Shown piece after piece: positions 37,324 to 59,756 of a stretch of DNA of 64,000 nt. A model generated the notes under the pieces. It searched no databases and was not told the origin of the DNA. It saw nothing but the letters and a program-made list of their open reading frames with translations. A program made the position numbers and the translations under genes. Location of the stretch: contig NZ_JAATWC010000004.1 of the NCBI RefSeq assembly GCF_012979235.1, positions 1 through 64,000 on the forward strand, read 5' to 3'. The DNA comes from Dissulfurirhabdus thermomarina. Its GTDB lineage: Bacteria > Desulfobacterota > Dissulfuribacteria > Dissulfuribacterales > Dissulfurirhabdaceae. Position 1 is the stretch's first letter. Every line of letters starts with the position of its first letter.

Positions 37324-40300
37324 TCACGCCCCCGGTTCCAGGCGGACCGCGCAGACCTTGTATTCCGGCGTCAGCGTCTTCGGATCCAACCCGGGGCTGG
37401 TGACGAGGTTCGTCAGGCTGTCCTGGAAGTGGAAGGACATGAAGACCGACCCCGGCCGGCTCCGCCGCGTGACCGACACCACGGCGGGCACCTCGCCCCG
37501 CCGCGAGACCACCCGCACCTCGGCGCCGTCCGTGAGGCCCAGGCGCCCGGCGTCCTCGGGGTGCACCTCCACGGTCTCGCGGGCCGCGAGGCGATCGAAG
37601 CCCTCGCACCGGCGGGTCATGGAGCCGTTGTTGTAGTGGACGAGCCGCCGCCCGGTGACCAGGACCAGGGGATAGTCGTCGTCCGCGTCCTCCTCCGGGA
37701 GGACGTAGGACACCACGGCGAATCGGCCCTTGCCCCGGGGGAAGGACTCCGAGTGGAGGAGCGGCGTCCCCGGGTGATCCGGCGCGGGGCACGGCCAGAC
37801 CTGGCCCGCCGCCCCGAGCCGGTCGTAGGAGATCCCCGCGTAGGACGGCGTGAGGGAGGCGATCTCCCGCATGATGTCCGCAGGATGGTCGTAGTGCATG
37901 GGGAAGCCCATGGCGGTGGCCACGGCGCAGACGATCTCCCAGTCGGCCCGGGCCTCACCGGGCGGCTCCACGGCCTTTCGGACCCGGCGCACGCGCCGCT
38001 CCCCGCTGGTGAAGGTGCCGTCCTTCTCGTAGAAGCAGGCGGCGGGGAGCACCACGTGGGCGAAGCGGGCCGTCTCGGTGAGGAAGAGGTCCTGCACCAC
38101 CACGAACTCCATGGCCTGGAGCGCCCGGTGCACGTGCCCCACGTTGGCCTGCGTCTGGGCCGGATCGTAGCCCACCACGTAAAGCCCCTTGAAACGGCCC
38201 TCGATGGCCGCCTCGTACATCTGGGGCTCGAGGAGCCCGTCCTGGGCGGGGAGCGTCTTCACGCCCCAGGCCTTGGCGAAGCGTTCCAGCACCTCGGCGT
38301 CGTCGGCGGGCTGGTAGCCGGGGTACGCGTAGGGCAGGGTCCCCATGTCGCAGGCGCCCTGGACGTTGTTCTGCCCCCGGAGGGGATTGATCCCGGTGTG
38401 GGGCCGGCCGACGTGACCGGTGGCGAGGACGAGGTTCGCCAGGGCCATGACGCCGGCCGTCCCGCCCTTGTGCTCGGCCACGCCGAGCCCGTAGAGGATG
38501 AGCGCCTTTTCGGCCCCGGCGTAGAGACGGGCCGCCGCCCGGATGTCGTCGGCCGGCACCCCGGTGATCTCGGCGACCTTCTCCGGCGGGTAGTCCGCCA
38601 CGTGGGCGCGGACCGCCTCGAGGTTCTCCGTTCGGGCCTCCACGAAGGCGGTGTCGAGGAGGCCTTCCTCGAGGATGCAGTGGAGCAGCCCGTTCAGGAG
38701 CGGGATGTTGGTGCCCGGCCGCAGCCGCAGCCACAGGCCCCCTTCCTGCGCCTCGGCGATGGCGGCCACCTCCGTGCGCCGGGGGTCGATGACCACGAGG
38801 CGCGTCCCGCGGGCCGCCGCCTCGCGCACCTTGAGGCCCACGATGGGATGGGCCTCCGTGGTGTTGGACCCGCAGACGAGGAGGACGTCCGTCCCGAGGA
38901 TCTGCTCGAAGGGGGTGGTGGCCGCCCCGCTTCCCAGTGTGGCCAGCAGACCGCTGACCGAGGGGGCGTGTCAGACCCGGGCGCAGTTGTCGACGTTGTT
39001 GGTGCCCCAGGCCCCCCTCGCCAGTTTCTGGAGGAGGTAGTTCTCCTCGTTGGTGCAGCGGGACGAGGAGAGCACCCCGAGGGCGTCGGCGCCGTGGCGA
39101 CGGCGGATCTCCCCGAACCGCTCGGCCACCAGCGCCAGGGCCTCGTCCCAGCCGGTCTCCCGGAAGGGCTCGTCGATGCCGTCCCGCACCAGGGGCCGCG
39201 TCAGCCGGTCCGGGTGGCGATAGAAGGTATAGCCGAACCGCCCCTTGACGCAGAGCTGCCCCCAGTTGGGCGGCCCGGCGGCATCCGATCGCACCTCGAC
39301 CAGGGCACCCTGCCGCACCACGAGGTCCAGGTTGCACCCGGTGCCGCAGTAGGTGCAGACGCTCTTGACCACGGAGACCTGGTCCGGGGTCTGCGGCACC
39401 ACGGCGGCCTTCTTGTAGAGGGCGCCGGTGGGGCAGGCGTCCACGCAGGCCCCGCAGGAGACGCAGCGCTCGTTGAGCCGGATGGAGACCTCGGCGAGGG
39501 CCTGGGTCTCCGGGTCCTCCTTCACGGCGAGATCGAGGGCCCCGTAGCGGCAGCTCCGGGCGCAGCGCCCGCAGGCCACGCACTTGTTGGGATCCACGGT
39601 GATGAAGGGGTGATCCGTGTCCACGGGGAAGCGCAGCCGGTCCGGCGCCTTCGCGGTGTTCACCCGGTAGGTGTCGGCCAGCTCCCGGAAGGTGCACTTG
39701 GAAAGCCCCAGGCACCCGCACTGGAGGCACCGCCTGGCCTCGCGGCGGGCCATCTCCTCGGAGAAGCCGAGCTCCGCCTCGTCGAAGTCCGCCACCCGGC
39801 GCTCGGCGGGGCGCGCCGGCATGCTCTCGCTGAGCCGGACGGCGTACCCGTCGAAGTTGTGCATGTCGACGTCCTCGAAGCGCTTGCCGCGGGAGAAGTT
39901 GAAGCGGCTCTCGGCCGGCACGGCCTTCTCGCCGGTGAGGTACTCGTGGATGGCCTCGGCGGCCCGCCGCCCGCCCGCCACGGCCTGGATCACCGTCCGC
40001 GGCCCGGTGGCGACGTCGCCGCCGGCGAAGATGCCGTCCACGCTGGTCTTCATGGTGGAGGGATTGGCCTTGATGGTCTTGCGGGGGGTGAGCTTGAGCT
40101 CCGCCTCGATCTCCCCGAAACTCCGGAAGGCGTCGTCCCCCTCCTGGCCCAGGGCGGCGATGACGGCGTCGCCCTCCCAGATGAGGCGGGAGCCGGGCAT
40201 GGGGACGGGATGCCGGACGCCCCTTTCGTCCGGCTCGTCCAGGATGGTCCGGGCCATCTCCACCACCACCTTGCCGCCCTGCTTCGATATGGACAGCGGG

Positions 40301-41514: not shown

Positions 41515-42405
41515 TCAGAGCTCCAGCCACGACTCGGAGAAGATGGTCTTCCCCATGAGCACCCGGGTGGTCTTGTAGTACTCGAGCTCCTTCGGGGAAA
41601 GGCCCGCGGGATCGGGGTCCTTGTCGTCCATGATGTCGTGGACGAGCTGGACCAGCTCGGGCCGCTCCCCGTGGGCGAGCTCCATGAGCTCCCGGTCGTA
41701 GGCGTCCACGATGGCGGACCAGATCCCCACCTTCATGAGCATGGCCAGGTAGGCCCGGTTGAGGTAGGGCCGCTTCTCGGTGGAGACGCCGTTGGAGACG
41801 TTGGAGAGCCCCACGGTGGACTTCACCCCGGGGGCGATCTCGGGGAGCATGGCCATGAACTCCAGCCCGCTCATCACCTGGTCGGACCCCAGGGTGATGG
41901 GGGTCGCGATGGGGTCGATGAGGATCCGCTCGTTGGGGATGCCGGCCTCGTTCATGGCCATGGTGAGGTCCACGGTCATGGCCGCCCGCTCGTTGGAGTC
42001 CCGCGGCATGCCGTCGACGCCCCAGAGGAGCCCCACCACGTAGCAGCCGGCCTCGGCGGCCACGGGGATGAGCTTCTGCATCCGCTCCGGCTGGAGCGAG
42101 ATGGAGTTCATGATGTGCCGGCCGGGCTCCTTGGCCGCCCGGATCCCGGCGATGAGGGCGTCGGCGTTGGTGGTGTCGAGGGAGAGCGGACAGTCGGTCA
42201 CCTCCTCGGTGACGCGGACGATCCACGGCATGAGCTCCGGGCCGTCCTTTCGGGCGGGCCCGATGTTGAGGTCGAGGAAGTCGGCCCCGTTGGCCACCTC
42301 CTCGTTGGCCATGAGCTGGATGGGACCGGGATCCCGTTCCCGCATGGCCTTGCCGGTACGGGTCCCCATGATGTTGATGCTTTCGGCGATGCAGCGAACG
42401 TACAT
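41515..42405 (-). CDS. acsE: Methyltetrahydrofolate:corrinoid/iron-sulfur protein methyltransferase
   Basis: 296 residues. The pterin-binding TIM barrel carries EEVANGADFLDLNIGPARKD, the conserved CPLSLDTTNADAL, ILIDPIATPITLGSDQVMSG and TVGLSNVSNGV. All match AcsE, which moves the methyl group from methyl-THF to Co(I) of the corrinoid iron-sulfur protein. It lies 29 bp after acsC and precedes fdhA, which fits its role between MetF and AcsCD. Confidence 0.95.
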   Translation of the reverse strand: MYVRCIAESINIMGTRTGKAMRERDPGPIQLMANEEVANGADFLDLNIGPARKDGPELMPWIVRVTEEVTDCPLSLDTTNADALIAGIRAAKEPGRHIMNSISLQPERMQKLIPVAAEAGCYVVGLLWGVDGMPRDSNERAAMTVDLTMAMNEAGIPNERILIDPIATPITLGSDQVMSGLEFMAMLPEIAPGVKSTVGLSNVSNGVSTEKRPYLNRAYLAMLMKVGIWSAIVDAYDRELMELAHGERPELVQLVHDIMDDKDPDPAGLSPKELEYYKTTRVLMGKTIFSESWLEL

Positions 42406-42434: not shown

Positions 42435-43784
42435 TCAGTTGGGCTGCCATTCCCGGAGGAAGGCCGGAAGATGGCTGGCCTCCCGGGGCCCGATCTGGAT
42501 GTTCCAGTCCGGCAGTTCCTCCTCCAGCTCGCCCTTGATGGAGGCGAGGTAACCCGGGATGATGAGGTTCCGGTGCTTGACCTTGTCGGCGATGGCGCTC
42601 TTCTTGACGAAGCCGGCGATGAGGTCGGCGCTGAACTTCCCGGCCGCCCAGGCCGTGAGCACCGAGAGCCCCTCCGTGTCCTTGATGAGGAGCCAGGAGG
42701 GCACCTTGCTGCCCTCCACCTCGCCCGAGACGATGAAGTAGGTGAGGGAGAAGTTGCAGGTGACCAGGACCGGCGAGTTCTCGTCCGGGCCGTTGATGGG
42801 ATAGACGTCCTCCTGGACCACCATGGGCCGCTGGGGGTCGGTGAAGAGGTTGAGCCGCTCGAGGAGGAGCGGGAAGAGCGTGTCGCCCTGGAGGTCCGAG
42901 AGCACCACGATCCCCGCGTACTTGGCCACGAGCACGCTGGCCACCATGGCCTCGACCTCGGGGTCGTCGGTCATCTCGCAGGGGAAGGTGATGGTGGGGA
43001 ACCCGAGGGGCCGGTACTTGGTCCGGATGGCCGAGCGGCGGGCCGCCACCTGGTCCTCGAAGGCGGCCCGCAGCGTCCGGGCGCCGGTGTCCAGCACCAG
43101 GTCCTTCACCTCCGCGGCGAGGCGCTCGGCCAGGGCCGCCGTCTCGCCGATGGTGGCCCCGCGGACCGCCAGGGGGCAGCCGGCGGCCTTGGCCGTCTCG
43201 AGCATCTGGTCGGCGTTTTCGGGGGTGGCCGCGTAGAGGAGCGGGACATGGTCGCCGCAGGCCTTGGCCCCGGCGGCGAGCACCGCGGGCGAATCGCTCA
43301 TGAGGACGAGGGCCGCGTCGGGGCACTCGGAGCGGACCCGCTCCACCAGGGCCGTGAAGGCCGCTTCGTCGCCCCCCGCGTCCTGGACGGCCACGAGGTC
43401 GGCCTTGAGCAGCACCCCCACCCGGTCGTAGCGGAGGGTGCGGAAGCGCTCCAGGCGGCCGGCGATGTCGGCGTCGTCCATGTCGGTGGCGATGCGCACG
43501 GCGATCCCCGTGGGGTGCTCGAAGCGCTTCTCGTGCCGGTACAGGCAGGTCTCGCCCCCCACCTGGAAGACGTGGTCCCCGGAGCCGAGCTTCACGGTGC
43601 GGATGGGCGGCGCCGAGGCCTCCCCCACCTTCTCCTTCACCTCGTCGGAGACGTACGGGCAGTCGCCGATGTCCGCCTGGCCCGCCGCCACCTTCATGGC
43701 AAAGGCCAGACAGGTGGGAACGTTGCACTCCCCGCAGTTCTTCTTGGGGAGCATCTTCATGATCTGGATGCCTGTCAGTGCCAT
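42435..43784 (-). CDS. acsC: Corrinoid iron-sulfur protein large (gamma) subunit
   Basis: 449 residues. The N-terminal 4Fe-4S domain shows the family's C-x2-C-x4-C spacing (NCGECNVPTCLAFAMK) with a fourth Cys at GDCPY. A TIM barrel and a C-terminal corrinoid-binding domain follow (ITFPCEMTDDPEVEAMV, VYPINGPDENSPVLVTCNFS). With AcsD it carries the methyl group from AcsE to the A cluster of AcsB. The AcsD partner here is encoded as the C-terminal part of a fusion upstream. 62 bp behind acsB. Confidence 0.96.
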   Translation of the reverse strand: MALTGIQIMKMLPKKNCGECNVPTCLAFAMKVAAGQADIGDCPYVSDEVKEKVGEASAPPIRTVKLGSGDHVFQVGGETCLYRHEKRFEHPTGIAVRIATDMDDADIAGRLERFRTLRYDRVGVLLKADLVAVQDAGGDEAAFTALVERVRSECPDAALVLMSDSPAVLAAGAKACGDHVPLLYAATPENADQMLETAKAAGCPLAVRGATIGETAALAERLAAEVKDLVLDTGARTLRAAFEDQVAARRSAIRTKYRPLGFPTITFPCEMTDDPEVEAMVASVLVAKYAGIVVLSDLQGDTLFPLLLERLNLFTDPQRPMVVQEDVYPINGPDENSPVLVTCNFSLTYFIVSGEVEGSKVPSWLLIKDTEGLSVLTAWAAGKFSADLIAGFVKKSAIADKVKHRNLIIPGYLASIKGELEEELPDWNIQIGPREASHLPAFLREWQPN

Positions 43785-43846: not shown

Positions 43847-46051
43847 CTAGACCGCGGCCTCCATGGAGAGGGCCGGATGGCCCTTCTCCTGGAGGAAGGC
43901 CAGCACCTCCTCCTCGGTGGTACCCACCTCCTCGTCCGCGATCATGTCGAGCAGGTCGGGGATGCCCTCCTCCTTGGCCCGTTCCTCGAGCCGCTCCCGC
44001 AGTTCCTCCTTGAGGGACTTGGGCATCCAGACCACCCGCTTGAGGCCGCCCTCGGCCTTCAGGAACTTCCGGCTCCCGATGTAGTGCTTCGAGACGCCGA
44101 GGAAGCCGGGGGTGACGTTGCCGCCGCCCACCATGCCGGCCAGGGTGGTGAACTTCATGCCGCTGGGGGTCATACCCATGTAGTCGCGGTTGACGATCAT
44201 AATGCCGTTGCACATGGGGAGCATGGTGGCAATGCACTCGAAGCAGCCGCAGGCCGTCATGGGGTCCACCATGAGGCTGTAGGCGCTCACCTGCGAGACC
44301 TTGCCCCGGGAGGCCTTCTGCACGAACTCGTTGATCCCCTTCCACTGGCCGAGGTTCTCGTCGATGCACTCGCCCTTCTCGATGGGCTGGTTGGGGCCGG
44401 TGGGGTTGATCTCGTAGGAGGCCTTGCCGTCGAGCCAGTTGTAGGCGCCGCACATCCCCACCCGCTCGGGAGTGATGACGCAGACGTGGCTCGGGGCGAA
44501 GGACTGGCAGAGGGTGCAGGAGTAGAAGATGTCCTCGGACTCGTCGGTCATGCTGCCCAGCCGCTCGTCGCGGGCGGCGTAGGTGGCCTTGGCGAGCTCC
44601 AGGACCTCCTTCACCTTGTCCTCCACCGTGTAGATCTTCACCTGGACCTTGTCGAGGATGGCTCCGAAGTCCTGGTGGAGCTTGCCGTGGAGGATCCGGC
44701 CGATGTGCTCGAACTTGAAGCCCTTCTCGATGGCGGCCTTGCCCACGCGGAGCCACATGATGTTCCGCTGCCCGATGTGCATGATGCCCTGGGCGTAGTT
44801 GATGAGGTGGTGGAACTGGCGCTCCAGGATGGGCTCGAAGTCGGACTGCATCTGGCGTCCCGCCACCTCCACCAGGATGGCCAGGGGGAGCTTCGCCCCC
44901 TCCTCCACGTCGGTCATCTCGGGCCCTTCCACGGTGACGAGGCCGTCCTGGACCTCCTCCATCTCCTTCGAGACCAGGAGCTCCACGCCGAGGGTCCGGC
45001 CGCCGCCGCACTCCAGGAAGAGGTCGTCCTTCCGGACGCGCTCCCCCTCGAAGGCGGGCCCGTAGGCCACGGGGATGTCGATCTTGGAGACCGTGACCTT
45101 GAGCCCCCGCACCTCGATGGACTTCTGGACGATCTCGTCGTGGGGTACGCGGCTGACCACGTGCTCGTAGGTGCAGATCCCGGTGGGGAGCACCTCGGGG
45201 ATGTCCCAGTCGGAGATGGTGGGGAAGCCCCAGTTGATGGCGCCGGCGGCGTTGGCGTACCACTCGTCGGAGACCGGGCCGAAGGCCATGACGAAGGCGA
45301 AGGTCCGGTCCTTGTTGTAGAGGAGGTTCCCCTTGTAGTCGCCCGGCTTGATGCCGCCGAAGGCCAGCGCCACGCGGCAGGCGAAGCCGATGGCGAAGAC
45401 CGCCGAGGTGTAGGTGGGCCCGAAGGGAACGAGCCGGGTGGACCAGCCGATCTGGTTCCCCTGCTTGAGGAGCTGCTCCGGCATGTTGAGGCCGTCGGTC
45501 TGGTCGTGCATGAAGATGTAGAGGTTCTTTTCCTGGAGCTCCAGGGCGATCTTGCTCGCCGTCTCGGGGTCGGCGGGTGTCCCCAGGATGGCGGCGAAGC
45601 CCGGGGCCGTGCCGTCCACGAACTCCACGCCGCGCTTGCGGAAGATGACGTCGTCGGCGGCCCCCAGCCAGAACCGGTCGTCGGTGGGATCCTCGGTCTT
45701 GGTGTAGAAGTCCGGGTCCTCGATGTAGCGGATGGCCTCGAACATCTCCTCGGCGAAGAAGGTGGCCATGCCGGCGTCCAGGGCCGGTGCGAGGTAGGGC
45801 AGCCAGACGTTCTCGCTCACCGGGGGCGGCAACAGGCGGCGGCACTCCTGGAAGATCTCCTTCATGTCGCCGAGCTGCTTCACCGGCGCCCCCAGCATGC
45901 TGTAGATGATGGGAAGGTAGTAGGCCGTGTTGGGGAAGGCGACCTCGTGCTCCGGGCCGTACTTCTTGAGGGCCTCCTCGTACTTCTCCTCGGCCATGTC
46001 CACGATCTTGTGGGCCCCGCGGATGGCGGCGGAACAGATAATCTTCGACAT
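43847..46051 (-). CDS. acsB: CO-methylating acetyl-CoA synthase (A-cluster subunit)
   Basis: 734 residues, the full bacterial length including the N-terminal CODH-docking domain (KIICSAAIRGAHKIVDMAEE). A-cluster cysteines are visible as YSCTLCQSFAPSHVCVIT, GMCGAYNW and CGCFECIATMLP, with the usual CxxC and CxC spacings. It joins CO from CooS with the methyl group of the corrinoid protein and CoA to give acetyl-CoA. It lies between metF-acsD and acsC. No AcsF/CooC nickel-insertion gene is in the window. Confidence 0.97.
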   Translation of the reverse strand: MSKIICSAAIRGAHKIVDMAEEKYEEALKKYGPEHEVAFPNTAYYLPIIYSMLGAPVKQLGDMKEIFQECRRLLPPPVSENVWLPYLAPALDAGMATFFAEEMFEAIRYIEDPDFYTKTEDPTDDRFWLGAADDVIFRKRGVEFVDGTAPGFAAILGTPADPETASKIALELQEKNLYIFMHDQTDGLNMPEQLLKQGNQIGWSTRLVPFGPTYTSAVFAIGFACRVALAFGGIKPGDYKGNLLYNKDRTFAFVMAFGPVSDEWYANAAGAINWGFPTISDWDIPEVLPTGICTYEHVVSRVPHDEIVQKSIEVRGLKVTVSKIDIPVAYGPAFEGERVRKDDLFLECGGGRTLGVELLVSKEMEEVQDGLVTVEGPEMTDVEEGAKLPLAILVEVAGRQMQSDFEPILERQFHHLINYAQGIMHIGQRNIMWLRVGKAAIEKGFKFEHIGRILHGKLHQDFGAILDKVQVKIYTVEDKVKEVLELAKATYAARDERLGSMTDESEDIFYSCTLCQSFAPSHVCVITPERVGMCGAYNWLDGKASYEINPTGPNQPIEKGECIDENLGQWKGINEFVQKASRGKVSQVSAYSLMVDPMTACGCFECIATMLPMCNGIMIVNRDYMGMTPSGMKFTTLAGMVGGGNVTPGFLGVSKHYIGSRKFLKAEGGLKRVVWMPKSLKEELRERLEERAKEEGIPDLLDMIADEEVGTTEEEVLAFLQEKGHPALSMEAAV

Positions 46052-46092: not shown

Positions 46093-48972
46093 CTACATGA
46101 GGCCCCGGGCCACTGCCTCGGCGAGGGCCACGGCCTTCGGGTGCCGCATCACCATGAGGTCGCCGCCGGCCAGCATGAGACAGACGGCGGTCATGGCCTC
46201 CATGAGGACCCCCCGGCGCTCCTGGTCACCGAGCATCTCGTCGGAGGGCAGCCGGGTCTCCTTGGCCTTCCAGACCTCGCGCCCGAGGTGGCAGATGAAG
46301 GGTGCCTGGAGCTTGTCGTCCTGCTGGGTGAGCGCGGCGAGACGGATCCGCTCCATCACGGAGTAGGTGTACTCCAGGCCGTAGCCCAGGGCGCCGATGG
46401 ACGGGTCCATCAGGACGTGGTCCAGGGAGAGGCCGAGGTTCTCGAGCAGGATGTTGAGCTGCTTGGCCAGGTTGACGTCGATGGGGGTCGAGGCCACCAC
46501 CGGCAGCTGGAAGGCCATGGCCGTGGCGCCGATGTTGCGGTAGTTGGCGTCGGTCAGCGGCGCCAGGCACACCTTCCGGTCGCCGATGAGGCTGGTGACC
46601 TCCCGGAGGGTCTCGGTGTCCTTCTCGGCGTTGCCGCAGCCCCAGAGGATGACGGGCACGTCCAGGGCCTCCACCACGGCCTTGGCGGTCTGGGCGGCCT
46701 CCGCGGAGGCACGGTTGGTGCCGTTGGGATCGGTGCTCACCAGGGAGAGGCAGACGGCCCGGGCGCCGTAGTCCTGGACGCACTTCCTGGCCCAGGCCAC
46801 GGGGTCCGACAGGACGTCGGCGTAGTGCCGCGCCAGGGACTCCGGCCACTCCTCCGGGGCCTCGTCCAGGACCTCGAGGGCGGTGGCCGGCGGCCGCGAC
46901 ATCTCCCCCTCGAAGAGGTGGAAGGGCAGGGTCGAGACACCGCCCACGGCCACGGCCTTGTCCCCCTCCCCGAGCACCACCTCGCGGATGGTCCCGGTGG
47001 CCGGGTCCTTGTAGCCGTCGGCCGGGATGGCCCCGGCGCGCTCCTCCAGGGAGGCCGTCTCGGAGGCGAGCGGCGGCACCTCGAGCCCGGCGGCCCCGGC
47101 CGGCGCGGGGGCGGCGGCGGGCGCCTTCTTGGGAGCCGGCTTGGGCTTCTCGGCGGCCGGCTTGGGCGGCTCGGGCTTGGGCGTGGGCTCCGCCGGGGCC
47201 GGCTCGACCTCCTTGGCCGCCGGCGCCTCCGGCTTCGGGGGCGCGGCTTCGGGGGCCTTCGGGACCTCGGCCGCCGGCGCGGCCTCGGGCCCCGGCCCCA
47301 CCTCCCCGGCCTCGGCGCGGGCGAGCCCGGCCTTGGCCTTGGCGTCGGCGGGATCCAGCTCCAGGGCGCGGCGGAAGGCCGCCTCGGCCGCCGCGGCGTC
47401 CCCGTTGTGGAGCGCCACGTTGCCCTGGGCGACCAGCCGGATCACCCACTTGCGCCGCCATTCGTCCTCGGTGAACTCCGGGGGGCACGGGGGCAGCCCG
47501 GCGGGCGCCGCCGCGGGGGCCGGTTCGGGTCTTTCGGCCGCCGCCGGCGCGGGGGCGGGGGCGGGGGCCCCGGCGGGCGCCGCCGCGGCTGCCGGCAGCG
47601 TTCCGGCGGCGATCCCCGTGGAGAGGTAGAACTCCGCCTCGATGAAGCGCCGGAGCGCCTCGAACTGTTCCTCGCTGAGTCCCATGACCTTCCGGAGCGC
47701 CTGGAGCCCCTGGCTGAGCGAGGTCAGGGCCCGGCGTTCACGATCCATCTTCTCTGCCATTGATTCGCCTCCCTCGGGGGTCATCGTTGCCGCTCCGGCC
47801 AAAGCGGGAGCCGCCCCGCCGGCCGCCAGGGCCGCCTTGGCGGCCTCCAGCTCCGCGAGCAGCCGGCGTACCTCGGCCTCGCCCTTCTCGGCCCGACCGC
47901 GGGCCGCCTCCAGCTCGGACCGGAGCCCGGAGACCTCCGCGGCGAGCCGGTCCTTTTCCCGCAGGACGTGGACGGAGGCGGCCTCGGCCTCCTGCCGGGC
48001 CTTCTCCGCCGCCTCGAGGGCGGCGGCGCCGCCCAGGACGGCCTCCACCCCCTTGGGCGCCGGCCGGGGATCGAGCCCGGCCCGCTTCACGATCTCGGGC
48101 ACGGCCTGCTCCCACTCGATGGCCATGATGTGGACCCCGGCCACCCCGGGGATCTCCCGGACCTGGCGGATGATGTCCACGCAGATGTCGATGCCCTCTT
48201 CCTGCTTGTCCCGGGCCGCCCGCATCCGCTGGATCACCTCGTCGGTGACGTCGAGCCCGGGGACGAACTTCTTCATGTAGTTGGCCATGCCCACGGACTT
48301 GGGCGGGGTCACCCCGGCCAGGATGTAGACCTTCTCGTGGAGGCCGAGGTCCCGGACCCGTTCCATGAAGCGGGCGAACTTCTCCACGTTGTAGATGATC
48401 TGGGTCTGGATGAAATCGGCGCCGGCGGCCACCTTCTTTCCCAGCCGGATGGGCCGGTACTCGAAGGGGTCGGCGAAGGGGTTGGCGGCCGCCCCCAGGA
48501 AGAGGCGGGGCTCACCCCCCTTGATCTCCTCCCCGCACTGGAACCGGCGCTCGTCGCGCATCCGGCGGACCATCCCGAGGAGCTGGATGGAGTCCATGTC
48601 GAAGACGCCCTTGGCCTGGGGATGGTTGCCGAACTTCTGGTGGTCGCCCGTCAGGCACAGGAGGTTCCGGATCCCGAGGGCCGCGGCCCCGAGGATGTCG
48701 GACTGCATGCCGATGCGGTTGCGGTCGCGGCAGGTCATCTGCATCACGGGCTCGACGCCCTCGGAGAGGGCGATGAGGCCCGCCGTGAGGCTGGACATGC
48801 GGACGATGGCCGTCTGGCAGTCCGTGATGTTCACCGCGTCCACGTGGCCCTTGAGGATCCGGGCCTTCTGCCGGACCACCTCGGGATCGCCGTTCTTGGG
48901 GGGGCCCAGCTCGCCGGTCACCGCGAACTGGCCGGAGGCCAGGACCTGCTCGAGGTTGCTTCCTGCGATCAC
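46093..48972 (-). CDS. MetF-AcsD fusion: methylenetetrahydrofolate reductase joined to corrinoid protein small subunit
   Basis: One frame of 959 residues from a GTG coupled to metV (GTGA). Residues about 1-300 are MetF (FAVTGELGPPKNGDPEVVR, NLLCLTGDHQKFGNHPQAKG, GADFIQTQIIYNVEKFA). About 310-385 is a predicted coiled coil (ALEAAEKARQEAEAASVHVL, LRSELEAARGRAEKGEAEVR). Residues 405-460 are helical, 500-550 resemble one TPR unit (GNVALHNGDAAAAEAAFRRA), 555-630 are an Ala/Pro/Lys linker, and about 650-959 are AcsD (LDVPVILWGCGNAEKDTETL, LDHVLMDPSIGALGYGLEYT). A GGGAGG lies 7 nt before the in-frame ATG at 47760 (residue 405), so a separate AcsD-containing product may also be made. MetF reduces methylene-THF with MetV; AcsD pairs with AcsC. 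Confidence 0.88.
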   Translation of the reverse strand: MIAGSNLEQVLASGQFAVTGELGPPKNGDPEVVRQKARILKGHVDAVNITDCQTAIVRMSSLTAGLIALSEGVEPVMQMTCRDRNRIGMQSDILGAAALGIRNLLCLTGDHQKFGNHPQAKGVFDMDSIQLLGMVRRMRDERRFQCGEEIKGGEPRLFLGAAANPFADPFEYRPIRLGKKVAAGADFIQTQIIYNVEKFARFMERVRDLGLHEKVYILAGVTPPKSVGMANYMKKFVPGLDVTDEVIQRMRAARDKQEEGIDICVDIIRQVREIPGVAGVHIMAIEWEQAVPEIVKRAGLDPRPAPKGVEAVLGGAAALEAAEKARQEAEAASVHVLREKDRLAAEVSGLRSELEAARGRAEKGEAEVRRLLAELEAAKAALAAGGAAPALAGAATMTPEGGESMAEKMDRERRALTSLSQGLQALRKVMGLSEEQFEALRRFIEAEFYLSTGIAAGTLPAAAAAPAGAPAPAPAPAAAERPEPAPAAAPAGLPPCPPEFTEDEWRRKWVIRLVAQGNVALHNGDAAAAEAAFRRALELDPADAKAKAGLARAEAGEVGPGPEAAPAAEVPKAPEAAPPKPEAPAAKEVEPAPAEPTPKPEPPKPAAEKPKPAPKKAPAAAPAPAGAAGLEVPPLASETASLEERAGAIPADGYKDPATGTIREVVLGEGDKAVAVGGVSTLPFHLFEGEMSRPPATALEVLDEAPEEWPESLARHYADVLSDPVAWARKCVQDYGARAVCLSLVSTDPNGTNRASAEAAQTAKAVVEALDVPVILWGCGNAEKDTETLREVTSLIGDRKVCLAPLTDANYRNIGATAMAFQLPVVASTPIDVNLAKQLNILLENLGLSLDHVLMDPSIGALGYGLEYTYSVMERIRLAALTQQDDKLQAPFICHLGREVWKAKETRLPSDEMLGDQERRGVLMEAMTAVCLMLAGGDLMVMRHPKAVALAEAVARGLM

Positions 48973-49637
48973 GGTTTCAAATCCTCCCTCACTCGCCGGC
49001 GCGGCCCGCCGTGGCCCGCCGGCACCCAGTCGCGGATGGGCATGATCTCTTCCATGCGCCGGGACTGGCCGAGCTCCCCGAGTTTCTCGTGGATCTGGTG
49101 CCAGACGCAGGGGACGTCCGGGTGGATCTCGCACCGCCCGCCCACGGAGCCGCCGCAGGGGCCGTTGGAGAGGCTCTTGGCGCACCGGGCCACGGGGCAG
49201 AGGCCCCCGGTGAGATGCAGCACGCAGGCGCCGCAGCCGGCGCACTTTTCCACCCACTCGCCGCTGCTCAGGTTCGCCCCGTAGAAGGTGGTGTTGAGGC
49301 CCGGCAGCACCCGGACCCCCGGGCAGCAATCGGCGATGAAGTTCACCCCCACCCCGCAGGCGATGGAGAGCACCGCGTCGTAGTCCTTCCCGGCGGTCTT
49401 CAACGGCTCGAGGTACTCGGGGTCGCACTGGCGGACGTAGGTCTCCTCCGCCACGGTGATGGTGCCGCCCCGGAGCTTGCGCCCCAGGCGGAGCGCCGCG
49501 GCGAGGACCGCCACTTCCTTGTCCCCCCCGGCGGAGCAGACCGCCACGCAGCCCCGGCAGCCGAGGACGAGGACCTTGGCGGCCCCCTCCAGCATGTCCA
49601 GGATCTCGGACAGGGGTTTACGCTCGGCGATGATCAT
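48969..49637 (-). CDS. metV: MetV-type methylenetetrahydrofolate reductase C-terminal/zinc iron-sulfur subunit
   Basis: 222 residues. N-terminal CRGCVAVCSAGGDKEV and SIACGVGVNFIADCCPG, followed by the cysteine-rich end (CAGCGACVLHLTGGLCPVARC, then GPCGGSVGGRCE) match MetV, which binds MetF and carries Fe-S clusters plus zinc in acetogens. It is coupled by 4-bp overlaps to mvhD2 upstream (ATGA) and to metF-acsD downstream (GTGA), so it should be made in step with both. Likely role: electron delivery to the MetF flavin. Confidence 0.9.
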   Translation of the reverse strand: MIIAERKPLSEILDMLEGAAKVLVLGCRGCVAVCSAGGDKEVAVLAAALRLGRKLRGGTITVAEETYVRQCDPEYLEPLKTAGKDYDAVLSIACGVGVNFIADCCPGVRVLPGLNTTFYGANLSSGEWVEKCAGCGACVLHLTGGLCPVARCAKSLSNGPCGGSVGGRCEIHPDVPCVWHQIHEKLGELGQSRRMEEIMPIRDWVPAGHGGPRRRVREDLKP

Positions 49638-50239
49638 TTGGTCGACTCCTTGGCCTTGGCCTTGCCGGCGGCCTTCTTCGCCCCCGCCTTCCCGGACGCG
49701 GCCTTCTTGGGGGCGGCCTTCTTGGTGGTGGCCTTCCTGGCGGCGGGCTTCTTGGCGGCCGCCTTCTTGGCGGCAGGCTTTTTCGCAGTCGCCTTCCCGG
49801 CGGCCGCCTGCTGGGGCTCGGACGCCTCCGGCCCGGCGGCCGGCGGGAGCACCGGTCCGAGCCGCGCCGCCCGGGCGGCCATCTCCCGGGCGGCCGCCAC
49901 CACGGGCTCGTTCTCGCCGCGGCCCACGAAGAACATCTCGAGACGGTCGGGGCTGATCCCCAGCTCGGAGAGGAGGACCTTCGCCTCCTTCACCCGGCGG
50001 GCGGCCCGCTCGCTGCCGGTCTTGTTGTGGCACTGGTCCAGCCGGCACCCCGCCACGAAGACGGCCTCGGCCCCCGCCTCGAAGGCGGCGAGGATCGCCG
50101 GGACCTCGAGCCGGCCGGTGCAGGGCAGGCGCTCCAGCACTGCGCCGGTGGGAAGGAGCCCCGCATCCCGCAGGGCCTCGCCCGAGACGGAGGCCGTGTA
50201 GTTGCAGCAGAAACCCTGGATCCTACGGTCAGCCGGCAT
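49634..50239 (-). CDS. Second MvhD-like iron-sulfur protein with a histone-like Lys/Ala tail
   Basis: 201 residues from an ATG with GGGAGG 8 nt upstream; a GTG three codons earlier is the alternative. The N-terminal 135 residues are MvhD-like: GFCCNYTASVSGEALRDAG, LPCTGRLEVPAILAAFEAG, VAGCRLDQCHNKTGSERA, with Cys where the other MvhD has Sec. From about residue 143 the chain is a repetitive Lys/Ala tail (KKPAAKKAAAKKPAARK and similar) of nearly 60 residues, like the C-terminal domains of bacterial histone-H1-like proteins. MvhD passes electrons between a 2Fe-2S cluster and HdrA. The tail may dock acidic partners; that is a guess. Overlaps hdrC by 11 bp and metV by 4 bp. Confidence 0.8.
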   Translation of the reverse strand: MPADRRIQGFCCNYTASVSGEALRDAGLLPTGAVLERLPCTGRLEVPAILAAFEAGAEAVFVAGCRLDQCHNKTGSERAARRVKEAKVLLSELGISPDRLEMFFVGRGENEPVVAAAREMAARAARLGPVLPPAAGPEASEPQQAAAGKATAKKPAAKKAAAKKPAARKATTKKAAPKKAASGKAGAKKAAGKAKAKESTK

Positions 50240-50817: not shown

Positions 50818-51582
50818 TCAAGCGGCCGTCCACTTGGCGCCCTTCTCCTTCACGCGGCCCAGCTTCGCCAGAGCCGCCAGCCCCTTCTCGATCTCCTCGG
50901 CGGCGGCCCCGGTCTTCTGGACCAGGTGCTTCACGTTGGCCGGCCCCTCGCCGGAGAGCGCCAGCCAGATCTCCTGGGTGACCCGCTCCTGGCGGAAGGC
51001 CGGCGCCACCTTCTGGGCCACCGCCTCCCGGATCCGGTCCGGGGCGTAGTCGCCTTCCTTGTGGAAGGACCGGGCCAGCGTCCCGATGGCCGTCCGGACG
51101 CGCCGGTCGTCGGCGGCCTTCACCGCCGCCGCCAGCCGCCGGACGAGGACATCCTTCGGCGGCTCGCCCTCCGCGCCCCCGAGGGGGCCGAGGCCCTTCA
51201 CCCGGGAGACGAACCCGGTGACGAGCTCCACGAACCGGGGCGCCTCCGCCGCGGAGGCCCAGTCGAGGCCGAACCTGTCGGGGTTCACCCCGGCGTCGGC
51301 CAGTGCCTGCCGTACCGCTTCCGCCATGATCATCGCCTCGTAATTACCAGACTGGTAATGGCATTCCCCGAGGTGTCACCCGCCGGTGAAGACCCCGTCG
51401 GCCCCGCACCGGAAGGCCTCGAGGACGAACCGGCCGTCGATGCGCCCCGTGCACATCACCCGGATCACCCGCACGTTGGGCGGGTACTGGTACCGGGACA
51501 CCCCGGCGGAGTCCGCCGCGGCGTAGCAACACCAGTGGCAGAAGAAGCCCAGAATGCGTGGATCGAAGCTCTCCCGGGTCAT
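50818..51582 (-). CDS. mvhD: Selenocysteine-containing MvhD (hydrogenase delta-type iron-sulfur subunit)
   Basis: 254 residues when the TGA at 51376-51378 is read as Sec69. Before it stands the MvhD N-terminal half ([49 protein letters not shown]), and directly after it [15 protein letters not shown] and the usual MvhD end ([19 protein letters not shown]). Family members have Cys at this GG-C-H position. Both halves are in the same frame, and splitting them would leave a 68-residue fragment. A C-terminal extension of about 85 residues looks like a helical winged domain. The ATG overlaps the hdrA stop (ATGA). MvhD transfers electrons to HdrA. Confidence 0.9.
51343..51378 (-). promoter_or_regulatory. 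UGA selenocysteine codon and SECIS hairpin in mvhD
   Basis: Sixteen nt after the TGA (51376-51378) the minus strand reads ATTACC, loop AGTCT, GGTAAT (51343-51359): a perfect 6-bp stem with a GU-containing apical loop. The AT-rich stem stands out in a region of very high GC, as expected of a constrained RNA element. Confidence 0.82.
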
Positions 51583-54693: not shown

Positions 54694-56688
54694 TCAGGCC
54701 CCGGGGCCGTGGCAGCCCACGTCCTGGAGCCCGGTCTGGAGCTCGCGCCGCATGGCCATGTCGAAGAGGACCCGCTCCTTCTTCTTGTCGAGGCCCAGGG
54801 CCTTGCGCTTGGCGTTGATGTGGTCGAGCATCTTGTTGGCGAACTCGTTGGAGGTCTGGGCCACGTCCCAGTGCGCGCCGTAGAGGTTCTCCATCTCCCG
54901 GAAGCAGTAGTCCGTCACCACCTTGGAGCCGGTGGTGGGGAAGCTGGGCCCGAAGATCACCGAGGCCCCGCTCGAGACGAAGTACTGCCCGATGGCCACC
55001 GCCTTCTCGCTCATCCACTGGGGCGCGCACCCCACGGCGGGAAGATCGCTGATGTCGTTGCCGAGGCCGCCGGTGAGGACCATCTCGGTGGCGGCGATGA
55101 GGATCCGGCTGTTGTCCACGCAGGAACCCATGTGGAGCACCGGGGGGCACCCCACGGCCTCGAGGACCTCCTTGAGCCCGTCGCCCGCCATGGAGAGGGC
55201 CTCGGGGGTGAGCAGCCCGGCCCGGCCCATGCCCGTGGCGGCGCACCCGGTCACCAGCACCAGGACGTCGTTGGCGATGAGCTCCTTGGCCAGCTCGATG
55301 TGGACCTCCTCGAGGACCCGGTAGTTGTCGCAGCCCACGATGGCGGCCACGCCCCGGATACGGCCGTTGGCGATGTTGTCGTTCAGGGGCTTGTAGCTGC
55401 CGCGGAAGCGCCCGCCGAGCATGTAGGTGATGGTCTCGTGGCTGAAGCCGGCCACCACGTCCATCTGGTGGACGGGGATGTAGTGCTTGCCCCGCTCCGG
55501 GTAGGCCGCGATGGCCTGGCGGAGGATCTCCTTGGCGGAATCCAGGGCGCGGTGCTCGTCGAAGGCGATGTGCCGGGCCCCGGGGATCTTGGCCTTCTCG
55601 GAGGTGGTGACGAGCCGGGTGTGGAACTGCCCCGCGGCGGGGGAGACGCCCTGCATGATGCACTGGACGTCCACCACCATGGCCTCCACGGCCCCCGTGG
55701 CCAGGACCACCTCCTGCTGCACGAAGCTGCCCGCGATGGGGAGTCCGCGGCGCATGAGGATCTCGTTCCCGGTGCAGCAGACCCCGGCGAGGTTGACGCC
55801 CTTGGCGCCCACCTTCTTCGCCTCGGCGACGATCTCGGGGTCGTTGGCCGCCATGGCCAGGGCCTCGGCCACCACGGGCTCGTGCCCGTGCACCGTGACG
55901 TTGACCTCGTCCTCCTTGAGGACCCCGATGTTCACCTTGGTGCGGATGGGCACCGGGGTCCCGAACATGACGTCGGAGAGCTCGGTGGCGATCATGGAGG
56001 CCCCCCAGCCGTCGGCCAAGGCGCACCGGGCGGCCTGGAAGAGGAGGTTGGCGGCGTCCTGGTCCACCCCCATGTGGGTCCGGTGCATGAGCTCCACCAC
56101 CTCGCGGTCGATGCCCCGGGGCGCCACCCCGAGCTTGGCCCACACCTCCTGGCGGGCCTTGGGGGCGCGCTTCATGAGGGCGAGCCCGCCCTCCTGCTGG
56201 CCGAACTGGTTCACCAGCAGGGTCCCCACCTCGATGGCGAGGTCGGTGGTCGCCTTGTCGGCCGGGTCGATGCCGAGCCGCTGCGCCGTGGCGCGGAGCT
56301 TGGCGGCGTCCTTGATCTCGTAGGGGGTCTCGCCCCGGGCGGTGGCCAGGAAGGCCAGCGCCATGCCCCGGCCGTGGTCCATGTGGGCGGAAGAGCCCCC
56401 GGCCACGATCCGGGCGAAGTTGCGGGCGGCCACCGTGGCGGCGTCGGCGCCGCAGACCCCGATCATCTGGTCCACGCCCTCGATGATCTGGCAGGGCCCC
56501 ATGTTGCAGTTCCGGCAGCAGGTGCCGCCCTTGCCGAAGAGGCAGGGCTCGGCCGCCCGCTGCGCGACCCGGTGGGCGGCGGTCACCACCCCGGAGGCGC
56601 AGGACTGGCAGAGCACGTCCTGGTTCGTCTCGCACTGGATGCTCGGGCACCCGCCGTTTCCCTTCTCGAAGCGCTTGCTGGTATCCAT
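54694..56688 (-). CDS. cooS: Anaerobic carbon-monoxide dehydrogenase catalytic subunit
   Basis: 664 residues. The N-terminal D/B-cluster cysteines are in [20 protein letters not shown], and further cluster ligands are seen in [40 protein letters not shown]-type sequence (around residue 470) and [17 protein letters not shown]-type sequence ([15 protein letters not shown]) is also present. It is the Ni-Fe enzyme that reduces CO2 to CO for AcsB. It lies between folD and hdrA, 51 and 49 bp apart. No CooC maturation ATPase is next to it. Confidence 0.96.
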
Positions 56689-56739: not shown

Positions 56740-57627
56740 TCAGGCCAGGCCCGCGAACTGCTTGGCGGCCTGGACCGTGTTCTTCATGAGCATGGTGATG
56801 GTCATGGGCCCCACGCCCCCGGGCACGGGGGTGATGGCCGCGGCCTTCTCCTTGACGGCCTCGAAGTCCACGTCGCCGCACAGGATGGCCTTCCCTTCCG
56901 GGGTCTTGCCGATGCGGTTGACCCCGACGTCGATGACCACCGCCCCCTCCTTCACCATGTCGGCGGTGATGACCTTGGGCCGACCGGCGGCCACCACGAG
57001 GATGTCGGCCCGGCGGGTGTGGAAGGCCATGTCCCGGGTCCGGGTGTGGCAGACGGTGACCGTGGCGTTGCCCGCCGCCCGCTTCTGGAGCATGAGATTG
57101 GCGATGGGCTTGCCCACGATGTTGCTCCGGCCCACCACCACCGCCTCGGCGCCGCTGGTCTCCACCCCGGAGCGCTCCAGCATCTCGAGGATGCCGTGGG
57201 GCGTGCAGGGCAGGAAGCACTGTTCCCCGATGACCATCTTGCCCACGTTGACCGGGTGGAAGCCGTCCACGTCCTTGTCGGGGTCGATGGCGTAGAGGAC
57301 CTTGGTCTCGTTGATGTGCTTCGGCAGCGGCAGCTGGACCAGGATGCCGTGGATGGCCGGGTCCTTGTTGTACTTGTCGATGAGCGCCAGGAGGGCCTCC
57401 TCGGTGATATCCTCGGGCTGGTTGTCCTGCACCGAGTGAAAGCCGAGCTCGTGGGCCGTCTTCTGCTTGGCCGTCACGTAGGAGACCGAGGCCGGGTTCT
57501 CGCCCACCAGGATGGTCACGAGCCCCGGGGTGACGCCGTGCTGCTCCTTGAGCCCGGCCACCTCGGCCTTGAGTTCCTCCCGGATCTGCTTGGCGATCTC
57601 GACGCCGCTGATGATCTTTGCCGTCAT
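56740..57627 (-). CDS. folD: Bifunctional methylene-THF dehydrogenase/methenyl-THF cyclohydrolase
   Basis: 295 residues from the ATG at 57627. VTILVGENPASVSYVTAKQK contains the catalytic Lys, VQLPLPKHINETKVL and PCTPHGILEMLERSGV are family signatures, VVVGRSNIVGKPIANLML starts the Rossmann fold, and PVPGGVGPMTITMLM closes the protein. It converts formyl-derived methenyl-THF to methylene-THF. First gene after the intergenic region behind fhs and the probable head of the cooS-hdrA-acs operon. Confidence 0.96.
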   Translation of the reverse strand: MTAKIISGVEIAKQIREELKAEVAGLKEQHGVTPGLVTILVGENPASVSYVTAKQKTAHELGFHSVQDNQPEDITEEALLALIDKYNKDPAIHGILVQLPLPKHINETKVLYAIDPDKDVDGFHPVNVGKMVIGEQCFLPCTPHGILEMLERSGVETSGAEAVVVGRSNIVGKPIANLMLQKRAAGNATVTVCHTRTRDMAFHTRRADILVVAAGRPKVITADMVKEGAVVIDVGVNRIGKTPEGKAILCGDVDFEAVKEKAAAITPVPGGVGPMTITMLMKNTVQAAKQFAGLA

Positions 57628-57938
57628 TGTCCCTGTCTCCTTCCCCTGATGATGGCGTCCCAACAATGCGCCGACTGCTCGAGTTGCCTCGGATGTGCCC
57701 CGGCATTCGGCGCTTGCCGCGCCATCCGATCCGAGGCCCCCTGCCCCCGGCGGGGCCGCCCGTCCTCATCATCGCCGGCCGCCCCCGGGCGGCCGCCACG
57801 CGTGACCCTCCCTGTTGTGCCAGAACCGTGCCGGACCGGGTCGGCGGGGGCGTCCCGAGAAATATTTTCTTCAGTTAACCGTTTTTCCGTATTTTTTCAA
57901 ACCCGACAAGGTGCCACGTTTTTACATTCGGTGGCAAC
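57628..57938 (-). promoter_or_regulatory. Leader and candidate promoter region of the folD-to-fdhA operon
   Basis: It holds a conspicuous AT-rich island at about 57850-57905 in otherwise GC-rich DNA. On the minus strand TTGAAA is followed 17 nt later by TAACTG within it, a weak sigma70-type match, and GTTAAC lies between. No known riboswitch or regulator site was recognised in the remaining leader of about 220 nt. Confidence 0.35.
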
Positions 57939-57970
57939 AAAAAGCCCCTGGGGCGTTTCTCCCCAGGGGC
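57939..57970 (-). terminator. Intrinsic terminator after fhs
   Basis: On the minus strand a perfect 10-bp stem GCCCCTGGGG / CCCCAGGGGC with a 7-nt loop is followed by TTTTTG. It separates fhs from the folD transcription unit. Confidence 0.88.
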
Positions 57971-57992
57971 GGGGTATTCCGCACCAGCGAGG

Positions 57993-59756
57993 CTAGAAGA
58001 GGCCCTTGACCTTGCCGGTTTCCACATCGACGTCGATCCGCCGGTAGGCCGGGTCGGAGCCCGTCCCGGGCATGAGGCTGATGGCCCCGGCCACGGGCAC
58101 CACGAAGCCGGCGCCCTTGTAGGTCAGGATGTCGCGCACGTGGAGGGTCCAGTCCTTGGGCACGCCCTTGAGGTTCGGGTTGTCCGAGAGGCTGAGGTGG
58201 GTCTTCACCATGCAGGTGCCGAGCTTGGCGAGCTCCGGATCCTTCTCCATGGCCTCGGCCTTGGCGGCGGCCTCCGGGCTGTAGGTGACCCCGGCGCCGC
58301 CGTAGACCTCCCGGGTGATCATCTCGATCCGCTTCCGGAGCGGCACGTCCAGCTCGTAGAGGTAGCGGAAGTCGTTGGGCTCCTCGCAGGCATCCACCAC
58401 GGCGTCGGCGAACTCGAGGGCGCCGTCGCCGCCCTTGAGCCAATGCTCCGAGACGGCCACGCGGGCCCCGGCGGCCTCGCAGAGCCGCCGCACGGCGGCG
58501 ATCTCGTCCTTGGTGTCGGTGTAGAAGGCGTTGATGCAGACCACGGGGTTGATGCCCGCCTTCTTCACGGTCTCGATGTGGTGAAGGAGGTTGGCCGTCC
58601 CCTTCTCCACCCACTCCACGTTCTCGCGGGCGTACTCCTCGGGCATGGGGCGGCCGGGCCGCGGGATGGGGGCCCCGCCGTGGCACTTGAGGGCCCGGAT
58701 GGTGGCCACCACCACGGCGCAGTTGGGCTTGAGTCCGCTGAACCGGCACTTCAAGTTCCAGAACTTCTCGAACCCGATGTCCGCGCCGAAGCCGCTCTCG
58801 GTGACGAGGTAGTCGCCCAGCTTGAGGCCGATGCGGTCGGCGATGACCGAGGACTGCCCGATGGCGATGTTGGCGAAAGGCCCGGCGTGGATGAGGCAGG
58901 GCTGGCCCTCGATGGTCTGCATGAGGTTGGGGTTGACGGCCTCCACCATCCAGGCGGTCATGGCCCCGGCCACCTCGAGGTCCTCGGTGGTGACGGGCTT
59001 TCCGGTCTTGTCGTAGGCCACCACGATGCGGCCGATGCGCTCGCGGAGGTCCTTGAGGTCCGTGGCCACGGCCAGGATGGCCATGATCTCGGAACTCACC
59101 GCGATGTTGAAGCCGCTCTGCATGGTGAAGCCGTCCATGCGCCCGCCGAGGCCCAGGGTGATGTTGCGCAGGGCCTGGGCGCAGAAGTCGATGATCCAGC
59201 GGAACTCCACGCTCTTCGGGTGGATGTCGAGACGCTTGAGCCCCCGCTGGGCCAGCTGCTCGTCGGTGTAGTTGGCCTCGTGCTGCATCCGGGCGGTGAG
59301 CGCCACCATCCCCAGGTTGTGGGCGTTCATGATGGCGTTGATGTCGCCGGTGAGCCCCAGGGAGAACTTGGAGAGCGGGATCACCTGGGCCAGGCCGCCG
59401 CCCGCGGCGCTCCCCTTGATGTTGAAGGTGGGGCCGCCGGAGGGCTGCCGGAGGGCGCCCACCACGTTCTTGCCGCGCTTTCCGAGCCCCTCCATGAGAC
59501 CCACGGCGCAGGTGCTCTTGCCCTCCCCGAGGGGAGTCGGGGTGATGGCCGTGACGTCGATGTACTTCCCGTCCGGGCGGTCCTTCAGCCGCTCGAGGGC
59601 CTTGGCGTAGTCGATCTTCGCCACGTAGTGGCCGTAGGGCAGGAGTTCCTCCTTGTCGAGGCCCAGCTCGTCACCGAGCTGGTAGACGGTCTTCATGTGT
59701 TCCTCCGCCGCCTCGGCGATCTGCCAGTCCTTCATCTTGGTGGGGTCGAGCTGCAT
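57993..59756 (-). CDS. fhs: Formate--tetrahydrofolate ligase
   Basis: 587 residues. The P-loop region is [20 protein letters not shown], and other family blocks are [56 protein letters not shown] and [13 protein letters not shown]. It activates formate with ATP to formyl-THF, the second step of the methyl branch. It has its own terminator and lies directly upstream of the folD operon on the same strand, so it may have a separate promoter or provide partial read-through. Confidence 0.97.

Follow-up and report, generated by a model that had tools for sequence, protein, structure and literature searches.

The Wood-Ljungdahl pathway holds a central place in thinking on early carbon fixation, and the handover of methyl-tetrahydrofolate (methyl-THF) from its soluble methyl branch to the corrinoid protein is usually assumed to occur by free diffusion. 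In the 64,000-nucleotide stretch of Dissulfurirhabdus thermomarina DNA analysed here (the window), the two ends of this handover, the methylene-THF reductase MetF and the corrinoid iron-sulfur protein small subunit AcsD, appear in one frame. This raises the questions of whether they form a single gene, how the arrangement arose and whether it yields one protein or two. On balance, sequence comparison leads us to favour, with some reserve, a two-product Wood-Ljungdahl gene.

One reading frame for MetF and AcsD

As the earlier note had proposed from the letters alone, a single MetF-AcsD frame occupies positions 46093-48972 (Table 1). It lies on the minus strand, where our reading of the open frames finds 959 codons with GTG first and no stop; the plus strand across the same positions contains a stop and is not open.

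Table 1. Features of the fusion gene and its operon in the window
Feature	Position	Strand	Basis or detail
metF::acsD fusion gene	46093..48972	-	GTG start at 48972, 959 aa, 101.6 kDa
MetF/MTHFR domain, residues 1-305	48058..48972	-	PF02219, alignment to 1v93, Foldseek
Single long helix, predicted coiled coil, residues 316-381	47830..48027	-	AlphaFold model
Conserved helical hairpin, residues 407-452	47617..47754	-	Model and HMM search
TPR-like three-helix unit, residues 502-555	47308..47469	-	TPR_2 and model
Disordered Ala/Pro/Glu/Lys linker, residues 560-640	47053..47295	-	pLDDT and composition
AcsD/CdhD, corrinoid iron-sulfur protein small subunit, residues 655-959	46096..47010	-	PF03599, 2h9a_B, Foldseek
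Putative internal Shine-Dalgarno GAGGGAGG	47768..47775	-	Duplex energy -11.8 kcal/mol
Putative second product: hairpin, TPR, linker and AcsD	46093..47760	-	ATG codon 405, 555 aa, 58.2 kDa
metV, separate gene	48969..49637	-	PF12225; its stop overlaps the fusion start as GTGA
Acetyl-CoA synthase (CODH/ACS alpha/beta model), directly downstream of the fusion	43847..46051	-	NF040764, 1109 bits
acsC	42435..43784	-	NF003195, 584 bits
acsE-type methyl-THF:corrinoid methyltransferase, separate	41515..42405	-	NF005719 (below cut-off) and PF00809
CO dehydrogenase catalytic subunit	54694..56688	-	TIGR01702, 623 bits
folD (56740-57666) and fhs (57993-59756), remaining methyl branch	56740..59756	-	Transcribed as fhs, folD

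The N-terminal half matches the Pfam MTHFR family over residues 7-299 (1e-39; 137 bits against a cut-off of 24), and a Foldseek comparison of the modelled domain with the Thermus enzyme (7th5) gives a TMt of 0.81. Residues E21, D110 and Q191 align with the Glu, Asp and Gln positions of Thermus MTHFR (1v93) that are catalytic in the family, and all three are unchanged in an alignment of 30 fusions. We assign this half to the MTHFR family, MetFV type, and predict reductase activity. As with other MetF proteins of that type, the operon holds a separate, adjoining metV as well as Hdr/MvhD genes, but the known proteins stop after some 300 residues whereas the fusion chain runs on into AcsD. The C-terminal half matches CdhD/AcsD in Pfam over residues 664-944 (3e-41), with NCBIfam placing AcsD at about 655-959, and it aligns to 2h9a_B with an E-value of 4e-88. 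Foldseek gives a TMt of 0.92 to the small subunit of the corrinoid iron-sulfur protein, with 48% identity to 2h9a_B in the structural alignment. Family and fold are both those of AcsD, the gene for the partner AcsC is present, and a corrinoid-binding dimer is predicted. The AcsD domain resembles that of known AcsCD proteins (2h9a, 4djd, 9fzy), and acsC and acsE both lie in the fusion's operon, but here about 250 additional residues precede the AcsD domain, in the short form discussed below as well.

The coiled coil, TPR-like unit and flexible arm noted earlier between the halves are borne out by Pfam and by the AlphaFold model, which shows two barrels, a long helix, a hairpin, the TPR-like unit and a disordered stretch. 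The helix spans 66 residues, with a heptad-like sequence that is conserved within the window's order. The hairpin consists of helices at 407-430 and 434-452; a 49-column HMM profile of it finds matches in 26 of 395 genomes of the phylum, one in each and all within fusion frames. The TPR-like unit has a single, weak TPR_2 match (E 8e-4, under Pfam's curated cut-off) and is modelled with pLDDT above 90 over most of its length. Beyond it, pLDDT falls below 50 at residues 560-628, and Ala and Pro each make up 31% of residues 560-640, Glu 14% and Lys 11%.

With a GC content of 68% in the window, long open frames are common, so that the fusion might be chance read-through, or else an assembly or sequencing artefact. 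We have ruled these out, their probability being close to nil: across three groups, 53 non-identical sequences keep this frame open, and they come from independent assemblies that include a named isolate strain and genomes with third-position GC (GC3) down to 0.20. Moreover, dN/dS in the junction and linker is 0.03 to 0.43 in close pairs with unsaturated dS, far under 1, and the linker is under purifying selection. MetF and AcsD are thus encoded, as these comparisons show, in one reading frame under selection. Broken fusion frames, due to either sequencing error or true breakage, occur in three assemblies (L062, L074 and L082), the break in L082 (Electrothrix aarhusensis) lying within MetF.

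Distribution and origin of the fusion

The database search that the earlier note had called for did find further MetF-AcsD fusions, in three groups of Desulfobacterota. Within the window's order, all genomes with both halves on one contig have them in one frame, and in the apparent exceptions examined the locus stops at a contig edge; genomes G013, G028 and G044 of the order have no such match. The fusion is also seen in Desulfobulbales, among them the cable bacteria Electronema and Electrothrix gigas, and in Thermodesulfobacteriales (Thermodesulfatator autotrophicus, Thermosulfurimonas, Caldimicrobium). Carriers outside the window's order include isolates. Across the phylum sample of 395 genomes, 254 have AcsD, and among the matches listed 40 of these 254 carry the fusion, in open frames of 722-1174 codons; the other AcsD frames listed are mostly of 313-390 or about 500-550 codons. 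In 201 genomes of Chloroflexota, none of the 35 with AcsD has the fusion.

The fused proteins form a single clade in the AcsD tree (SH-aLRT 99), which, like the MetF tree, was a quick one without bootstraps. In the MetF tree, which is unrooted, one branch divides the separate MetF proteins of other lineages from the rest, with one split pair (L121/L122) as the exception, so that a single origin is possible there too. These trees fit a single fusion event in the three groups' ancestry. Beyond the fused clade, metF and acsD often stand side by side but as separate genes, with no arm, a pattern that points to fusion of two neighbouring genes. The split pair lies inside the fused clade and comes from two genomes whose family groups with Thermodesulfobacteriaceae. 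In both, metF ends after ...YPRP, and acsD has its own ribosome site and begins MQNEKELL, just ahead of a helical segment resembling that of its fused relatives.

The fusion itself is not new to the literature, despite the earlier statement that no described case was known. The genome paper on Desulfurivibrio alkaliphilus AHT2 (Melton et al. 2016; PMC5016858) has 'mthfr/acsD fusion' in its abbreviation list, where it denotes, within an acs cluster, the same joining of methylene-THF reductase to the small subunit of the corrinoid protein; for strain MLMS-1, the paper cites the Moorella thermoacetica genome paper. In the portion of PMC5016858 available, the account is confined to the label, with the arm, spread, origin and internal start unmentioned. 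The literature searched, mostly papers outside subscription, names the fusion nowhere else and yielded no mention of the spread, the arm or the internal start, and the words 'fused' and 'fusion' are absent from the text of a 2026 study of the pathway in Desulfobacterota. The fusion appears, then, to be known, if barely, and the internal acsD start to be undescribed. Gene-by-gene annotation, giving 'MetF' or 'AcsD' alone, will overlook the fusion.

Other AcsD arrangements were also encountered. Two AcsD frames of the common 500-550 codon class (L127:2988-4574 and L128:4130-5719) have a C-terminal extension of about 200 residues that is not MetF and has no Pfam match. A different fusion, in genome G071 (L126:3816-7001), pairs an N-terminal AcsD with a domain of CO dehydrogenase (Prismane), placed at 520-1061; its open frame extends past the end of the stretch examined. 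Genome G001, of the window's order, has an extra unfused AcsD in a 516-codon frame (contig C81:599-1507) besides its fused one.

A probable internal start for AcsD

Long and short products of one frame, from in-frame internal starts, are familiar from infB and cheA. The nested start considered here is of that kind but would lie at the ancient fusion point of two metabolic proteins. In the window, the candidate is codon 405, the ATG at 47760, which GAGGGAGG precedes by 7 nt. GC3, which is 0.955 for the gene, falls to its minimum of 0.53 in the 15 codons from codon 398, and the lowest 15-codon windows all start at codons 398-401 (binomial 1.7e-6 per window, with 945 windows in the gene). In other genes of the 64 kb the GC3 minimum mostly falls close to where the open frame begins, and in a related fusion (L085; GC3 0.89) the lowest value is reached at this same point, where L085 too has an internal ATG. 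The strength of the Shine-Dalgarno (SD) sequence at codon 405 gives p = 0.08 against synonymous shuffles of the window's sequence, and so is not decisive alone. Such shuffles gave no SD excess in the MetF and AcsD domains, while values at the junction lean low.

The comparative evidence is much stronger than this single ribosome-binding site, on which an AcsD-only product had first been proposed. In Desulfobulbales all 14 sequences read ...(E/D)(A/S)GE(H/D)(E/A)MNE... at the junction, and in all 14 the glycine is encoded by GGA, creating GGAGA a few bases ahead of the in-frame ATG. GGA makes up only 2-30% of the glycine codons in these genes, and the product of its shares is 1.3e-16 if the sequences are independent, although such products overstate the odds because the 14 sequences, like the 12 treated below, share ancestry. 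A 13-sequence alignment has just six invariant codons, with this GGA by far the least probable (10^-13.9), and the region around it has the strongest synonymous conservation of the gene, outranking the true gene start.

For the window's order the picture is less uniform. Conservation of the exact ATG at 47760 had to be rejected: most members have Leu there, and many have an SD and ATG at codon 376, some 30 codons earlier. Where Glu-Glu precedes Met376 it is encoded GAG GAG in 12 of 12 members, giving AGGAG(G), compared with three of seven members having Glu-Glu without the Met (Fisher p 0.009, uncorrected for kinship). Synonymous conservation peaks at codons 359-372. Several members (L026, L064, L067, L070, L110 and L112) have no junction Met, and in some of the order the start appears to be missing or shifted.

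The absence of any junction Met from some fused members is what would be expected if the full-length protein alone were made, as a plain bifunctional fusion. The SD-like motifs might then slow ribosomes between domains to aid folding, or be by-products of a Gly/Glu-rich junction; those at Met376 do indeed come from Glu-Glu-Ala codons. This explanation fits poorly, however, with the rare GGA, which never varies in the SD ahead of an equally constant ATG and is the gene's most improbable invariant codon. Nor does it sit well with the AT-ending codons around the ATG, as found at gene starts, or with the split genes, which begin acsD at the corresponding place, and we think it unlikely. GGA invariance, the order's GAG GAG, the GC3 dip in the window, the shuffles and the split-gene start together lead us to regard the internal start as real: very probably so in Desulfobulbales, and probably, with less assurance, in most of the window's order and in the window. 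The same gradation applies to nucleotide-level selection on SD and start codon, for which the codon evidence is firm in Desulfobulbales, good in most of the order and suggestive in the window.

The operon and possible roles of two putative products

Transcribed from the minus strand, the genes run fhs, folD, CO dehydrogenase, HdrA-like, MvhD-like, HdrC-like ferredoxin, MvhD, metV, metF::acsD, acetyl-CoA synthase, acsC, acsE and formate dehydrogenase. The window's genome, which is 99% complete, contains no second AcsD, and its one other MTHFR match is distant and lies inside a 567-codon frame.

If the gene has two products, initiation at GTG48972 would give a chain of MetF, coiled coil, hairpin, TPR-like unit, linker and AcsD of about 102 kDa. 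Initiation at ATG47760 on the same message would give AcsD of about 58 kDa with hairpin, TPR-like unit and linker but without MetF. Each form could pair with the separate AcsC to make a corrinoid protein. The long form would tie MetF, and by way of MetV the adjacent Hdr/MvhD electron carriers as well, to part of the corrinoid protein pool, so that methyl-THF would be produced beside the site of its use by AcsE, while the short form would be the source of the extra AcsD needed by CODH/ACS. The hairpin, common to both, is likely to be a docking or self-association element. Tethering of this kind may channel methyl-THF. Between MetF and the corrinoid the transfer still requires AcsE, which is unfused, so the MetF-AcsD tether by itself does not pass on the methyl group; it can raise local methyl-THF but not replace the methyltransferase.

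The separateness of AcsE would equally suit a fusion that fixes the amounts of MetF and AcsD, or co-localizes them without channelling, with the arm as a passive spacer. The arm does differ greatly in sequence and length between groups, and two genomes have lost the fusion while keeping both proteins. On the other hand, nearly all other sampled members of the three groups have kept it, and the conserved hairpin, seen nowhere but in the fusion, points to a role beyond spacing. We consider a passive role possible, if doubtful. The linker had also been likened to the swinging arms of multienzyme complexes. Flexible, Ala/Pro-rich low-complexity arms do connect folded domains in the E2 proteins of 2-oxo-acid dehydrogenases, and the fusion shares with them a flexible linker between folded domains. 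The likeness goes no further than analogy, because the arm is without a lipoyl- or biotin-type carrier, none appearing in a Pfam scan of the fusion protein, and the substrate here is free methyl-THF.

Selected fusion of the two ends of the handover, in three groups with sulfur disproportionators and cable bacteria among them, implies that closeness of the two ends matters there. With a nested start, the ratio of tethered to free carrier becomes a testable quantity.

Among the operon's other genes, that for the formate dehydrogenase alpha subunit has an in-frame TGA at 38971-38973 (minus strand; NNVDNCARV-TGA-HAPSVSG), at the usual selenocysteine site, and is likely to encode a selenoprotein. 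A second likely selenoprotein is the MvhD-like gene with an in-frame TGA at 51376-51378 (minus strand; GVFTGG-TGA-HLGECHY), the corresponding residue in the paralogue at 49634-50239 being Cys (GCRLDQCHN). That paralogue, the minus-strand MvhD gene adjoining metV, ends in a Lys/Ala-rich tail of about 60 residues with a weak match to a histone H1-like family.
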